This document shows, in pieces, positions 39,142 through 64,000 of a stretch of DNA of 64,000 bases. How positions within the stretch are numbered: position 1 is the first letter of the stretch; the number at the start of each line of letters is the position of its first letter. Below the pieces are notes generated by a model. That model ran no database searches. It was not told the DNA's origin and saw only the letters and a program-made list of their open reading frames with translations. The position numbers and the translations under genes were made by a program. The stretch is from Acidilutibacter cellobiosedens (GTDB lineage: Bacteria > Bacillota > Clostridia > Tissierellales > Acidilutibacteraceae): the NCBI RefSeq assembly GCF_004103715.1, contig NZ_CP035282.1, positions 2,966,673-3,030,672 of the forward strand. The letters run 5' to 3'.

Positions 39142-39365
39142 CAAAACACCGCCTCACATTACAGAGACGGTGTTATCGCGGTTCCACTCTGATTTGGTTT
39201 CATTAAAAAACCCAACTCAAAAATTGATAACGGTTAACACCGGAAATTCCTAATTAATTTCGGAACAACAGTTTAAAGGTGCACTTCAGCTAAACATTGG
39301 CCCGAAATTTTTTTCAGCCAAATCAAAAATCCCTCTCTAAGAGCATGTTGAGCTTACTCTCCTTT
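39142..39365 (-). promoter_or_regulatory. T-box riboswitch for cysS (Cys, specifier TGC)
   Basis: Minus strand: stem I begins around GGAGAGTAAGCTC; the specifier is TGC (39283-39281) in CTGAAGTGCACC. The T-box AGAGTGGAACCGCG lies at 39177-39190 and the terminator AACACCGTCTC ... GAGGCGGTGTTTT at 39142-39174. This is a standard transcription-attenuation T-box sensing uncharged tRNA-Cys. Confidence 0.95.
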
Positions 39366-39395
39366 TCAATACCTTTTAATATTTATTTGTTCTAT

Positions 39396-43663: not shown

Positions 43664-43870
43664 CTAAAAAAACCTTCATCTCAGGAAGAGACGAAGGTTT
43701 GAAATCCGTGGTACCACTCTAATGGATTTAATTTTTATAAATCCTCTCATAAGTTTTAACGATACTATCGTTCAGACATACTAAATTCTGACTGAAAGCT
43801 CCGGAATGGGTTCGATTCTTAGAGGACTGAAAGTATTTCACCTTTGAACTTTCTCTCTAAAATCATAATC
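43664..43870 (-). promoter_or_regulatory. T-box riboswitch for proS (Pro, specifier CCC)
   Basis: Minus strand: stem I begins near TTAGAGAGAAAG; the specifier is CCC (43810-43808) in CGAACCCATTCC. The T-box AGAGTGGTACCACGG lies at 43706-43720 and the terminator AACCTTCGTCTC ... GATGAAGGTTTTTTT at 43664-43700. It should sense uncharged tRNA-Pro. Confidence 0.95.
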
Positions 43871-43909
43871 ATCTACTATTTTCCTTCAACGCAATATCTT
43901 GTTTTTTTT

Positions 43910-58866: not shown

Positions 58867-59571
58867 TTATCCTCCAAGGTAAGCTTTCTTTACCTTTTCA
58901 TCATTTAAAAGGCTTGCCGCGTCTCCTTCCATATCAATTACCCCATTTCTGATTATATAGGCTCTATTCGTATATTTAAGGGCCATATTAGCATTCTGTT
59001 CAACCAATAAGATTGTAGTGCCATTTTCATTTATATCTTGTATAATCGAAAAAATTTCTTTAACAATTATAGGTGCCAATCCCATGGACGGTTCGTCCAA
59101 TAACAATATGTTCGGTCTCGAAAGAAGTGCTCTGCCAATAGAAAGCATCTGCTGCTCCCCTCCGGATAAATTACCTGCATATTGATTTTTCCTTTCATAA
59201 AGTTTTGGAAATAAAGAAAATACTTTATCCATATCCTTTTTTATTTGGGGTTTATCAGTCCTTGTAAAGGCTCCCATTTCAATATTTTCAAGAACGGACA
59301 TAGTCGAAAATACCCTTCTTCCTTCCGGCACATGCGATATTCCCATCTTAACAATATCCGAAGCAGAATATTTGCTTATATCCCGGCCATCATATTCTAT
59401 ACTTCCGGACTTCAATTTTTTAATTCCCGATATGGTACGCAATGTTGTAGTCTTACCGGCCCCATTAGAACCAATTAATGTTACTATTTCTCCCTTGTTT
59501 ACCTTTAAGCTTACATCTTTCAAAACATGAATGGCTCCATAGTAAACATTCAAATTATGCAATTCAAGCAT
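58867..59571 (-). CDS. livF: Branched-chain amino acid ABC transporter ATPase LivF
   Basis: 234 residues starting MLELHNLNVYYGAIHVLKDV, with GGAGGTG upstream; the five-codon extension is rejected. Walker A LIGSNGAGKTTTLRTI, signature LSGGEQQMLSIGRAL, Walker B ILLLDEPSMGLAPIIV and the LVEQN switch. The EQQMLSIGRAL and EPSMGLAP forms are typical of LivF. It powers the importer with LivG. It overlaps livG's end closely (2-bp gap). Confidence 0.97.
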   Translation of the reverse strand: MLELHNLNVYYGAIHVLKDVSLKVNKGEIVTLIGSNGAGKTTTLRTISGIKKLKSGSIEYDGRDISKYSASDIVKMGISHVPEGRRVFSTMSVLENIEMGAFTRTDKPQIKKDMDKVFSLFPKLYERKNQYAGNLSGGEQQMLSIGRALLSRPNILLLDEPSMGLAPIIVKEIFSIIQDINENGTTILLVEQNANMALKYTNRAYIIRNGVIDMEGDAASLLNDEKVKKAYLGG

Positions 59572-59572
59572 A

Positions 59573-60343
59573 TTATTCACCTCCAAGATATGCTTTAATT
59601 ACTTGTGGATTAGTCTGAATTTCCTGAGGAGTTCCGTCCGCTATTAACGTTCCATAGTCAAATACAAATATTTTATTACAAATTTCCATAACTAAAGACA
59701 TATCATGTTCTATAAGAATTATAGTAAGACTGAATTCATCTTTGATCCAATTAATTAATTTTGTTAATTCCTTTGTCTCATTTGTATTCATTCCGGCGGC
59801 CGGTTCATCTAAAAGGAGTACTTTAGGCTTAGCAGCCAAAGCTCTTGCAATTTCTACTTTTCTTTGTTCTCCATAGGGAAGATTCTTTGCTAATTCATCT
59901 TTCTTATCATAAATATTGAATATCTTCAGCAGTTCAACTGCTTTCTCATATGCCTCTTTTTCATTCCTATAAAAAGATGGCAGTCTAAATAAAGAAGGTA
60001 ATATTCCATAATTCAGATTACAGTGATATCCAATGAGAATATTATCAAGTACACTCATATTTTTAAAAAGCCTTATGTTCTGAAAAGTTCTTGATACTCC
60101 GTATTTAGGCATTTTAAAAGGTTTAAAATCTTTTGATAAAATTTTCTTTTTAAAATTATATGTTATATCGCCGGAACTGGGACTATAAATGCCTGTTAGG
60201 AGATTAAAAAAAGTTGTTTTCCCTGCGCCATTTGGTCCGATTACTCCTACTATCTCTCCTTCTTCAATCGACATGCTTATATTTGAAATAGCTTTTACTC
60301 CTCCAAAAGATTTACAAAGATTATTTACTGTGAGTACATCCAT
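59573..60343 (-). CDS. livG: Branched-chain amino acid ABC transporter ATPase LivG
   Basis: 256 residues. Walker A VIGPNGAGKTTFFNLLTGIY, signature NLPYGEQRKVEIARALA (the LivG-type YGEQRKVEIARAL), Walker B VLLLDEPAAGMNTNET and IEHDMS switch. RTFQNIRLFKNMSVLDNILI is the Q-loop region typical of LivG. The ATG lies inside the end of livM (23-bp overlap), so translation is coupled. Confidence 0.97.
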   Translation of the reverse strand: MDVLTVNNLCKSFGGVKAISNISMSIEEGEIVGVIGPNGAGKTTFFNLLTGIYSPSSGDITYNFKKKILSKDFKPFKMPKYGVSRTFQNIRLFKNMSVLDNILIGYHCNLNYGILPSLFRLPSFYRNEKEAYEKAVELLKIFNIYDKKDELAKNLPYGEQRKVEIARALAAKPKVLLLDEPAAGMNTNETKELTKLINWIKDEFSLTIILIEHDMSLVMEICNKIFVFDYGTLIADGTPQEIQTNPQVIKAYLGGE

Positions 60344-61271
60344 TTAAAACACCTCTCTTTTTAAACAACCTTAAGTCGTTTTTCCCTATCAGTCCTTGTG
60401 GTCTATAAACCATTATCAGGAATAAAATAACTGAATATACGACCATTCTCAATTCCGGAATATTCTGAAGGAAAACAGATATAATGGAAAGCATAACGGC
60501 TCCGACAACTGAACCTAAGACACTTCCAATGCCTCCAAATACTACTATAACCAATATATCTATTGATTTCATGAATCCAAAGGAATCAGGCCTTATAAAA
60601 TAAAAATAATTTGCATATAGTGCACCTGCAATACCTGCAAAAAAAGCTCCCATTGTAAAAACCAATATTTTATAATATGTCGTATTTACTCCCATAGTTT
60701 CAGATGCAATTTCGTCCTCTCTGATGGATATACATGCCCTTCCGTTATAGGATTTTATAAAATTATTGATAATTATTATAGTTATCACCACACAAAAATA
60801 TATCCACGTCCAATTTGTATATTGAGGAATATCATTAAGTCCTGTAGCGCCCCCAATATAATCATTATTAAGTCCAATGATCTTTATTATCTCACCAAAT
60901 CCTAATGTCGCTATTGCAAGATAGTCCCCTTTAAGCCTTAAGGTAGGTATCCCAATTATAATTCCTGCTAATGAAGCAGATAAAGCTGCTGCTATAATTC
61001 CGACAATAAAGGGTTGGCCCAGCTTTGCCGTCATTATAGCTGAAGCATAAGCTCCAATAGACATAAATGCCGCATGGCCAAGAGAAAATTGCCCCGTAAT
61101 TCCCGTTATGAGATTCAGACTTACTGCAAGTATTATATTTACACCTATTACAACAATATTCAATATTATATAGGAATCTATAATACCCCTATTTATCAAA
61201 AATTCAACTATAAAGTAAATACTTAAAATTAATATCAGATTAAAAATATTTTTTTTGTTCAGAAATTTCAT
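60321..61271 (-). CDS. livM: Branched-chain amino acid ABC transporter permease LivM
   Basis: 316 residues, about nine to ten membrane segments. The LivM signature GQFSLGHAAFMSIGAYASAI is near residue 60, and the ATPase-coupling region is ISIREDEIASETMGVNTTYY then KILVFTMGAFFAGIAGALYA. It forms the membrane channel with LivH. The start follows GAGGGTGAT. Confidence 0.97.
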   Translation of the reverse strand: MKFLNKKNIFNLILILSIYFIVEFLINRGIIDSYIILNIVVIGVNIILAVSLNLITGITGQFSLGHAAFMSIGAYASAIMTAKLGQPFIVGIIAAALSASLAGIIIGIPTLRLKGDYLAIATLGFGEIIKIIGLNNDYIGGATGLNDIPQYTNWTWIYFCVVITIIIINNFIKSYNGRACISIREDEIASETMGVNTTYYKILVFTMGAFFAGIAGALYANYFYFIRPDSFGFMKSIDILVIVVFGGIGSVLGSVVGAVMLSIISVFLQNIPELRMVVYSVILFLIMVYRPQGLIGKNDLRLFKKRGVLNGCTHSK

Positions 61272-61287
61272 ATCATCACCCTCAGTT

Positions 61288-62172
61288 CTAAACTTTTTCT
61301 TTTATATTTTTACCAAGTAATCCGTTAGGTCTTACTAAAAGGACTATTATTAGTATTGCAAAAGCAACTGCATCTTTATAAAGGGAACCACCTGCTGCAC
61401 TTATGACAGTTTCCGTAATTCCTAAGAAAAAGCCTCCAAAAACAGCTCCCGGAATAACTCCTATACCTCCTATAACTGCTGCAACAAATGCCTTGAGTCC
61501 CGGCAGTACTCCCATAAGAGGATTGATTGAATTGTAATATACTCCGACTAACACCCCTGCCGCTCCTGCAAGAGCCGAACCTATAGCAAAGGTACTTGAT
61601 ATCGTCTTGTCTATATTAATTCCCATCAGTTGTGCAGCATCACTGTCTAAAGATACTGCCCTCATTGCCTTACCAATTTTTGTTTTATAAATCACATATT
61701 GAAGAATGAGCATTAAAGAAATTGTTATAACTATTATGGAAAGATTTTTAAAATCCAAAACTGCATTTGTATTAAATATATGAATCTTCTTATCCGGTAA
61801 AAGTTCCGGAAAAGTTCTGGTCTCAGGCTTTACAAAATACATCATTCCATACTCTAAAAATAGTGAAACACTTATGGCCGTTATTAATGCAGCTATCCTT
61901 GTAGAATTTCTCACAGGCTTATAAGCTACCTTCTCAATCAACACACCAAGAATACTACACAGCAGCATAGATATTATAAGTGATGACAAAAAATTTAATT
62001 TAAAAAATGTTGTCAGTGCAAATCCAATATATGCTCCAATCATATAAATATCCCCGTGAGCAAAATTTATCAAATTTATTATTCCATAGACCATAGTATA
62101 TCCGAGGGCTATCAACGCATAAATGCTGCCAAGGGATATCCCGTTTATTACTTGCTGAATTATCTGTTCCAA
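61288..62172 (-). CDS. livH: Branched-chain amino acid ABC transporter permease LivH
   Basis: 294 residues with a TTG start giving MEQIIQQVINGISLGSIYAL, the usual LivH N-terminus; GGGGTGAT lies at proper distance and the ATG upstream falls inside that site. Signature INFAHGDIYMIGAYIGFA and coupling loop AVSLDSDAAQLMGINIDKTI. The C-terminus LVRPNGLLGK is typical. Confidence 0.94.
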   Translation of the reverse strand: MEQIIQQVINGISLGSIYALIALGYTMVYGIINLINFAHGDIYMIGAYIGFALTTFFKLNFLSSLIISMLLCSILGVLIEKVAYKPVRNSTRIAALITAISVSLFLEYGMMYFVKPETRTFPELLPDKKIHIFNTNAVLDFKNLSIIVITISLMLILQYVIYKTKIGKAMRAVSLDSDAAQLMGINIDKTISSTFAIGSALAGAAGVLVGVYYNSINPLMGVLPGLKAFVAAVIGGIGVIPGAVFGGFFLGITETVISAAGGSLYKDAVAFAILIIVLLVRPNGLLGKNIKEKV

Positions 62173-62258
62173 AATCATCACCCCATTGATTTATTAACAT
62201 ATAACAAATATCTATCACAGAGGCAAATAATCTTCCCTCTGTGGTAGATCTATAATAA

Positions 62259-63419
62259 TTATGGCTCTAATTTTTTAACAAAGGAAGGTTGTCCGTCTTT
62301 TAATTGAAGTATTGTAATTGACTTTACAGGATTATGATTTTCATCCATAGAAAATGTTCCTGTTATACCCTTAAAATCCTTAGTGTCTGCTAAAGCATCC
62401 TTAATTTTTTCAGGGTCTGCCTCTCCTGCTCTTTTTATAGCATCAGCTACAAAATATCCCATATCATAACCTAATGCACTGAACGCATCCGGTTCGCTTC
62501 CATTCTTTTTCTTAAATGATTCTCTAAATTTTACAACATCAGATGCATCGTCCATAGATGAATAATGGTTTGTATAATAAACATTTTCTAATGATTTCTT
62601 ATCAGCAATTTCTGCTAATTTCGGTGAATCGTATCCGTCGGCTCCAAGTATTGGTATGTTAATGCCTAATTCTCTGGCTTGTTTTATAATCAGCCCTACT
62701 TCTTCATAATAACCCGGAACATATAATACATCCGGATTGGTTCCTTTAATATTTGTCAAAACAGCTTTATAATCTGTATCCTTAGATTGATATGCTTCTT
62801 CTGTCAAAATTTCTCCGCCAAGTTTTTCAAATGTCTCCTTAAAATTCTTTCCTATTCCTTTACTGTAGTCACTTGTATTATCAATAAGAATTGCCGCTTT
62901 TTTTGCCTTTAAATCACTGAATGCAAAATTTGCCATGGTTATACCTTGAAATGAATCATTAAAACATGTCCTAAAGATATAATCTCTAACCTTTCCATTG
63001 CTATCAACGGTAAAATCGTCCGAAGTAGCTGAAGAGGATATAAGCGGAATTTTATTCTGCATTGCTGCCGGAGATGCCGCTTTTGCATCCCCTGATGTTG
63101 CCGGCCCTAATATTACCACAACTTTATCTCTTGTAGCTAACTTTGTCGAAACATTAGCAGCTTCTGCACTGTCTGACTTATTATCAACTTTTACAAGTTC
63201 TATCTGTTTACCAAGAACTCCGCCGGCTTTATTTATTTCATCAATTGCAAATTCTATACCTTTTACCGAACTTTGCCCATAAGTTGCAACATTTCCAGAT
63301 AATTCATAATTTAATCCTATTTTTATATTTTCAGAACTTTCTCCTGATTTTGAATCACATCCTACTAATAAAGTAGATATCAATAAAACCGTCATAACTA
63401 AAGTAATTGCTCTTTTCAC
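62259..63419 (-). CDS. livK: Branched-chain amino acid-binding lipoprotein LivK
   Basis: 386 residues with a GTG start behind GGGAGAG. Signal peptide with lipobox LLVGC, cysteine at residue 21, followed by a Ser/Glu-rich linker. The periplasmic-binding fold type I begins IKIGLNYELSGNVATYGQSS; VILGPATSGDAKAASPAAMQ is the ligand-binding region. It captures Leu/Ile/Val or similar acids outside the membrane. It follows a Leu/Ile T-box, which supports branched-chain specificity. Confidence 0.95.
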   Translation of the reverse strand: MKRAITLVMTVLLISTLLVGCDSKSGESSENIKIGLNYELSGNVATYGQSSVKGIEFAIDEINKAGGVLGKQIELVKVDNKSDSAEAANVSTKLATRDKVVVILGPATSGDAKAASPAAMQNKIPLISSSATSDDFTVDSNGKVRDYIFRTCFNDSFQGITMANFAFSDLKAKKAAILIDNTSDYSKGIGKNFKETFEKLGGEILTEEAYQSKDTDYKAVLTNIKGTNPDVLYVPGYYEEVGLIIKQARELGINIPILGADGYDSPKLAEIADKKSLENVYYTNHYSSMDDASDVVKFRESFKKKNGSEPDAFSALGYDMGYFVADAIKRAGEADPEKIKDALADTKDFKGITGTFSMDENHNPVKSITILQLKDGQPSFVKKLEP

Positions 63420-63494: not shown

Positions 63495-63605
63495 TAAAAA
63501 AGGCTTTTATCGGAATATTGATATATTAATAAAGCCTTTTTTGAAACTCACTTAAAGTCAAATACAAATTAATGTAAATAGAGTTTCCCATAGATTATAA
63601 AAAAA
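63495..63605 (+). repeat. Dispersed repeat family, copy G (full length)
   Basis: Left hairpin AAAAAAGGCTTTTATCGGAA ... ATAAAGCCTTTTTT, middle GAAACTCACTTAAAGTCAAA then TACAAATTAATGTAAATAG, right end TTTCCCATAGATTATAAAAA. It lies between the T-box terminator and livK. The right end merges with the T-tract of that terminator. Confidence 0.8.
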
Positions 63606-63825
63606 AGCCTCTATTACGTATATATACGTAATAGAGGCACGTTAGCACGGTACCACTCTAAATCATAATATCCTCACGAATACTATCTCAGTAGGTTCAA
63701 TCAAACCTTCTCCTTATAACGTAGGATCCATTCGTCATCGCTTACTTAGTTCAGCTATGAAACTCAGAAGTGATTTATTATCTACTAAACCAATGCCGAT
63801 TCTCACCATCTTCGGCTCTCTGTAA
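63599..63825 (-). promoter_or_regulatory. T-box, Ile module with intact antiterminator/terminator (specifier ATC)
   Basis: Minus strand: stem I begins AGAGAGCCGAAGATGGTGAG; the specifier is ATC (63774-63772) in AATAAATCACTTC. The T-box TAGAGTGGTACCGTGC lies at 63645-63660, and the terminator is a long palindrome GCCTCTATTACGTATA and complement (63607-63638) followed by TTTTTTTT. It should raise livK-H-M-G-F expression when tRNA-Ile is uncharged. Confidence 0.9.
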
Positions 63826-64000
63826 TTAGTTAAAAAATAGTTTTTCTCTTCATCATAGTTTTTGATATAGTAAAGCATCAACAGGTTCAATCAAACCCTT
63901 CCCTTATAACGTAGGGGAACGTTACAGCCTACTTATTCAGCGGCACAACTCTGAAGTGAGTTATTATCTATTTTTTCAATCCCGATTTCCACCATACTCG
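63826..64000 (-). promoter_or_regulatory. T-box, upstream Leu module (specifier CTC), 5' end outside window
   Basis: A second stem I, similar to the first: AATAACTCACTTC gives specifier CTC (63960-63958); CCTACGTTATAAGGG and TTTGATTGAACCT are shared with the Ile module. The T-box and terminator are not intact: the corresponding place (63829-63857) reads TATGATGAAGAGAAAAACTA, with no TGG-ACC core. The module runs off the window end. Confidence 0.8.

Follow-up and report, generated by a model that had tools for sequence, protein, structure and literature searches.

The stretch of DNA analysed here (the window; 64 000 nt, positions 2966673-3030672 of the single 3.74-Mb contig of the host genome, Acidilutibacter cellobiosedens) raises the question of what an upstream amino acid sensor can do in a leader whose only transcriptional switch follows a second sensor. 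Two T-box decoding modules are located in one leader before an intact livJHMGF-type importer operon; all leader and operon features described below are on the minus strand. In the order of the transcript, the leader contains a promoter-like site, module 1 with the specifier CUC, a 17-nt linker, module 2 with the specifier AUC, Stem III, the T-box, the terminator and livJ. By its anatomy the leader is a T-box; it is not a full tandem T-box. The locus is also numbered as L024, with window position equal to L024 position plus 62258.

Module 1 is the Leu decoding domain; it contains Stem I, Stem II, IIA/B and the hairpin X1, and occupies 63882..64000 of the window. Its 5′ end, at ∼64051, extends 51 nt beyond the window edge, and the module was completed from the genome sequence. 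The Rfam model RF00230 matches it at 63893-64051 (L024 1635-1793) with 66.4 bits (E 8.1e-14); the match skips the model positions for Stem III and the antiterminator. The specifier CUC (63958..63960) is found in the context AATAA-CTC-A-CTTC, at the same position as the specifiers of all relatives. Downstream of it, the Stem II and IIA/B pseudoknot region (63900..63951) shows compensatory double changes and covarying conserved helices. Hairpin X1 (GGGTTTGATTGAACCT, 63882..63899) could also pair end to end with its counterpart X2 in module 2. The 17-nt linker between the modules (63865..63881) contains no terminator, T-box or U-run.

Module 2 matches the full RF00230 model at 63630-63865, with 87.7 bits (E 2.6e-19). 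Its Ile decoding domain (63709..63865), which is composed of Stem I, Stem II and IIA/B, carries the specifier AUC (63772..63774) in the context AATAA-ATC-A-CTTC; like that of module 1, this specifier is followed by an A and then by the CUUC arm. The copy X2 (AGGTTTGATTGAACCT, 63692..63709) comes next, followed by the parts that exist as single copies. Stem III (63662..63687) is an AT-rich hairpin just 5′ of the T-box, placed by its Rfam alignment position and as a predicted hairpin in the fold. The T-box itself, AGAGUGGUACCG (= AGAGTGGTACCG), was located by the Rfam alignment at 63648-63659, with the UGGU bulge at 63652-63655. The intrinsic terminator and its U-run (63599..63638, stem 63607-63638) were called by the terminator scan; the stem has 14 pairs and is followed by eight U, the segment has a predicted energy of -23.2 kcal/mol, and shuffled sequences yield 0.2 terminator-like sites.

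The first-pass annotation had read two homologous stem I regions here, CTC (Leu) upstream and ATC (Ile) downstream, with the T-box core and terminator after the second only. Both readings hold: Rfam matches both modules, the specifiers are in place, and the leader scan gave one T-box and one terminator. Its description of the repeat as stem I was correct for what it named but too narrow, as Stem II, IIA/B and the extra hairpin are also duplicated, and module 1 is cut by the window edge. Over 177 aligned nt, modules 1 and 2 are 79% identical (E 2e-40). The duplicated unit consists of Stem I, Stem II, the IIA/B pseudoknot and a family-specific extra hairpin X (GGTTTGATTGAACC); it ends before Stem III, and the discriminator is not copied at all. 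Since the repeat stops before Stem III, the decoding half is present twice and the discriminator half once. In T-boxes the decoding half holds the anticodon and the discriminator half tests the 3′ end of the tRNA; in these terms, the copied unit ends at a clean domain boundary. Stem I with its conserved motifs and the specifier codon are present in both modules, whereas the T-box with its UGGN bulge and the antiterminator competing with the terminator occur once, 3′ of module 2, and are absent after module 1.

Both modules score under the curated Rfam cut-off of 93 bits, and were therefore missed by the whole-window gathering scan. Among the single T-boxes that precede livJ in relatives, several also stay below 93 bits with all features present; the low score thus reflects model fit and is not a defining feature of the mechanism. 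Elsewhere in the window there are two other single T-boxes, at 43684-43898 (126.4 bits) and 39160-39378 (106.4 bits).

The first gene of the operon encodes a livJ-type branched-chain amino acid binding protein (62259..63419; Pfam PF13458, E 2.9e-70; NCBIfam PRK15404, E 3.8e-52, under cut-off). It is followed by the livH-type permease (61288..62181; PF02653; NCBIfam LivH as best match, E 1.3e-74, under cut-off), the livM-type permease (60321..61271; PF02653; best match LivM), the livG-type ATPase (59573..60343; PF00005 and PF12399; best match LivG) and the livF-type ATPase (58867..59586; PF00005; best match LivF, E 1.9e-85). We named the operon livJHMGF-type because the best named matches of all five genes are NCBIfam Liv models, each below its curated cut-off. 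These Pfam and NCBIfam matches support the earlier placement of the leader before a branched-chain amino acid importer, a location that fits both specifiers. On the other side of the leader, ∼1.3 kb upstream and outside the window, there is a DDE transposase-like gene (PF13610; L024 3100-4554, window ∼65358-66812); a LytR-CpsA-Psr gene is located between the two.

With the livJ protein as query, 47 loci were retrieved from named genomes, and 113 of 150 related genomes contained a match; the nearest livJ relatives belong to Tissierellia. The T-boxes found before the same livJ gene in other Tissierellales are single and complete. At the equivalent position, most of them carry the specifier AUC; CUC is found in L034, L036, L086, L092, L096 and L100, and GUC (Val) in two, L089 and L101, so that the orthologous specifiers differ in the first base only. 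As the same gene is under an Ile, Leu or Val T-box in different species, both inputs of the host leader are sensible for the importer. In a tree of the decoding region that includes the same-gene T-boxes of other species, modules 1 and 2 are sisters with 93% bootstrap support; the duplication therefore most likely occurred in this lineage. The host genus is represented by one species in the genome set, and the double module by one genome.

We also looked for a second case. Junction model R1, a sequence profile without base pairs that joins the tail of one decoding module to the head of the next, was run over 249 genomes of the order; with few candidates scored per genome, a full-length match was obtained in the host genome only. 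With a looser threshold in 41 relatives, ∼150 T-box heads were listed, and the junction was spanned by the host leader and by L211 only. L211, located before an asparaginyl-tRNA synthetase-like gene, was rejected, being a single T-box whose upstream match arose by chance; this survey, limited in depth, thus gave no second real double-module case among the ∼150 heads listed from the 41 related genomes. The pattern CCGTTA...AGAGAG...GGTG, searched over 391 genomes of the class, matched 55 genomes; the reversed control also matched many, and the inspected matches were chance-like. This pattern would miss the host leader, which has ACGTTA.

Is the Leu module maintained, or is it a leftover? A Leu module that controls nothing could remain from a tandem duplication, or from a full tandem whose first platform was lost; the leader would then work as a plain Ile T-box. 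The occurrence of the double module in only one genome would fit such a history, and so would a module 1 that has no platform of its own, the longer branch (0.209, compared to 0.127 for module 2), and the loss of two pairs, one in Stem I and one at the end of Stem II. Of the 39 decoding-helix pairs, 36 are formed in module 1 and 37 in module 2. In the 16 sequences compared, 16 pairs have changed on both sides, compared to a shuffle mean of 6.5, and slid structures drop to 3-5. Differences between the two modules fall on 4 of the 67 columns that are conserved among relatives and on 34 of 94 columns elsewhere (p 4e-6); for the changes assigned to module 1 alone, the numbers are 2 of 67 and 12 of 94 (p 0.044). 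Along the branch leading to module 1, both partners of two Stem II pairs were exchanged with pairing retained (C-G to U-A and U-A to C-G), an outcome reached in 0.3-0.5% of simulations; the ancestral states behind these branch assignments are based on four near relatives and are approximate. The total pairing retained on this branch is not unusual (P 0.33), and only the double changes are. The IIA/B pseudoknot is also kept in module 1, its pair 162-177 being C-G in one module and U-A in the other, and the specifier of module 1 is a proper Leu codon for which a tRNA is encoded. With its conserved core kept and two compensatory changes in Stem II, module 1 does not look like decaying debris; taken together, the conservation evidence favours a maintained tRNA-binding module. 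Among the two options offered by the first-pass annotation, a leftover is thus the less likely, and we consider it somewhat unlikely overall; a sensor that feeds into a common antiterminator appears better supported.

The tRNA genes were inspected for the two putative ligands. tRNA-Leu(GAG) is encoded in the genome; its gene ends with ...CTTCCGCA, which gives the discriminator base A73, and owing to this base its A73-CCA end is compatible with the single UGGU bulge. Four kinds of search gave no tRNA-Ile(GAU) in the assembly, which is given as 98% complete. Because AUC and AUU codons need this tRNA, its absence is probably an assembly gap. Each of the two rRNA operons found has a single tRNA, tRNA-Ala, between 16S and 23S. 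Three tRNA genes with the anticodon CAT have 81% identity to an isoleucine tRNA query composed for this search; they may encode the AUA-reading tRNA.

From the anatomy and ancestry of the leader, the signs of constraint on module 1 and the compatible tRNA-Leu gene, we infer, with moderate confidence, a partly tandem transcriptional T-box with a duplicated decoding half and a single discriminator, where either uncharged tRNA would stabilize the shared antiterminator in an OR-like manner. This reading ranks first, the leftover next, and a modulating role of module 1, discussed below, after it. In the proposed course, duplication of the decoding half in this lineage was followed by divergence at the first specifier base (CUC and AUC), with Stem III, antiterminator and terminator staying single. 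Leu shortage would let uncharged tRNA-Leu(GAG) dock on module 1, and Ile shortage would do the same for uncharged tRNA-Ile and module 2. Whichever of these tRNAs is present uncharged would pair with the single UGGU bulge through its 3′ end, the single antiterminator would be stabilized, and RNA polymerase would read into the importer operon. The logic would be OR-like, different from the AND-like logic of a full tandem of two T-boxes. Full tandem T-boxes are expected to need both tRNAs (PMC12452182), and with a single platform this need would be removed; for an importer serving several amino acids, either-or control would presumably be more useful. Counting against the OR model, module 1 is the far module, and it would need to reach over ∼190 nt.

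The identical hairpins X1 and X2 might provide a route for this far module, by opening and pairing with each other. They can form a helix of 16 pairs, predicted at -19.7 kcal/mol, compared to -4.5 and -5.0 kcal/mol for the separate hairpins X1 and X2. The X1-X2 helix would loop out the Ile module and bring the Leu module beside Stem III and the antiterminator. In a fold predicted for the transcript as far as the antiterminator, calculated without tRNA and pseudoknots, the probability of the exchange is ∼0.96. However, cotranscriptional folding favours X1 forming first, which counts against the exchange. Self-pairing of X hairpins is also possible in species with a single T-box; it therefore did not arise through the duplication, nor was it selected for exchange. 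The identity of X1 and X2 was rejected as a proof of exchange, as longer identical stretches are found elsewhere in the modules. We propose only tentatively the fuller version of the OR-like sensor, a natural two-input RNA OR gate with two tRNAs, two decoders and one antiterminator, in which X1/X2 exchange would choose the module that faces the platform.

The same pairing could serve a different end. A tRNA on the Leu module might alter the folding of the Ile module, for example by blocking X1-X2 pairing, so that Leu status would tune the Ile response in an AND-like manner, with no action through the shared bulge. Without tRNA, X1 and X2 are predicted to pair and to enclose the Ile module, and occupancy of module 1 could in this way affect module 2; however, X1-X2 exchange as predicted would enclose the Ile decoding module without unfolding it, and the fold also ignores the order of transcription. 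We regard such a modulator as improbable.

The third alternative, that module 1 is a complete T-box with an overlooked platform or part of a separate transcript, is largely refuted and has very little probability left: it could point to a weak promoter-like site (9/12) at the junction, but shuffles of the inter-module stretch average 4.4 such sites, which places it at background, Rfam skips the antiterminator at module 1, the gap is 17 nt, and the terminator and promoter scans and Rfam gave no T-box, no terminator and no promoter-like site above 9/12 between the modules. The best promoter-like site, TTGACA-17-TATTGT (10/12; L024 1865-1837), is located upstream of module 1, outside the window.

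Several known systems resemble the host leader in part. Single T-boxes of the same gene (for example those of Tissierella creatinophila, L025, and T. praeacuta, L028) contain the same Stem I, Stem II, IIA/B, extra hairpin, Stem III, T-box and terminator; the single livJ T-boxes of Tissierellales, with their Ile, Leu or Val specifier at the equivalent place, have one decoding module, compared to two here. Vitreschak and colleagues reportedly described, in 2008, partially tandem T-boxes with duplicated terminator-antiterminator parts; partial repetition would be common to both, but there the platform is said to be repeated, whereas the host leader combines a repeated decoding half with one platform. 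In the two-codon T-box of Clostridium acetobutylicum, reportedly described by Saad and colleagues in 2013, overlapping codons in one Stem I are said to let one platform answer two tRNAs; the host leader instead has two complete decoding modules. Partially tandem T-boxes are also mentioned, without detail, in PMC7583486.

Like the host leader, full tandem T-boxes (such as L197 and L198, from the same order, and the class of PMC12452182) have repeated T-box parts in one leader. Different from it, each copy has its own antiterminator and terminator, the paired specifier regions look alike, and both copies must be satisfied. T-boxes are enriched as complete tandem units (PMC12452182); together with L197 and L198, this agrees with the earlier remark that known tandem T-boxes usually repeat the whole unit. 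From the reading of their translated starts, the genes after L197 and L198 look like serA and serC. The tandem glycine riboswitch (PMC9481103) also places two sensors before one platform; its two aptamers bind the same ligand, whereas the host leader would bind two different tRNAs. In the sense of PMC12452182, the anatomy is that of an adjacent-sensor riboswitch, with two sensors and one platform after the last; the Rfam matches are 27 nt apart, beyond the operational cut-off of that study (<20 nt between aptamer matches). The literature examined, which does not include key T-box papers, gave no description of a leader that joins two different decoding modules to a single platform, and TBDB names tandem T-boxes as future work (PMC7778990).

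OR is listed among the two-input riboswitch functions not observed in nature, and two interacting ON switches have been proposed as a way to it (PMC9481103). If the Leu module works, the leader would be a natural example of this logic among tandem riboswitches; it would also indicate that one discriminator domain can serve two decoding domains, and hence the modularity of the T-box halves. The evolutionary side is of interest as well, as the same importer gene is controlled through AUC, CUC or GUC in relatives and the host lineage has two of the three. One short leader and two tRNAs make the working of partly tandem T-boxes testable.

Some other elements were observed around the livJ leaders. 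A palindrome around AGATTGCAATCT, located between the -10 region and the livJ T-box in L026, L027, L028, L029, L030, L031, L032 and L062 and absent from the host leader, is perhaps an operator. In the host, a second hairpin, AAAAAAGGCTTT...AAAGCCTTTTTT with a U-run (window 63496-63542; predicted -12.9 kcal/mol), lies downstream of the T-box terminator and upstream of livJ; the terminator scan did not call it, and it was not seen in the inspected leaders of relatives. In the same interval, several Tissierellia (L026, L028, L029, L033, L034 and L035) contain short open reading frames, of which the window has none; on reading their sequences, these share the motif (D)EDGI or a similar one, as in MIINIDEDGIRIK and MINIDQDEDGIRLKGYYLKNYN, and possibly represent a conserved leader peptide.
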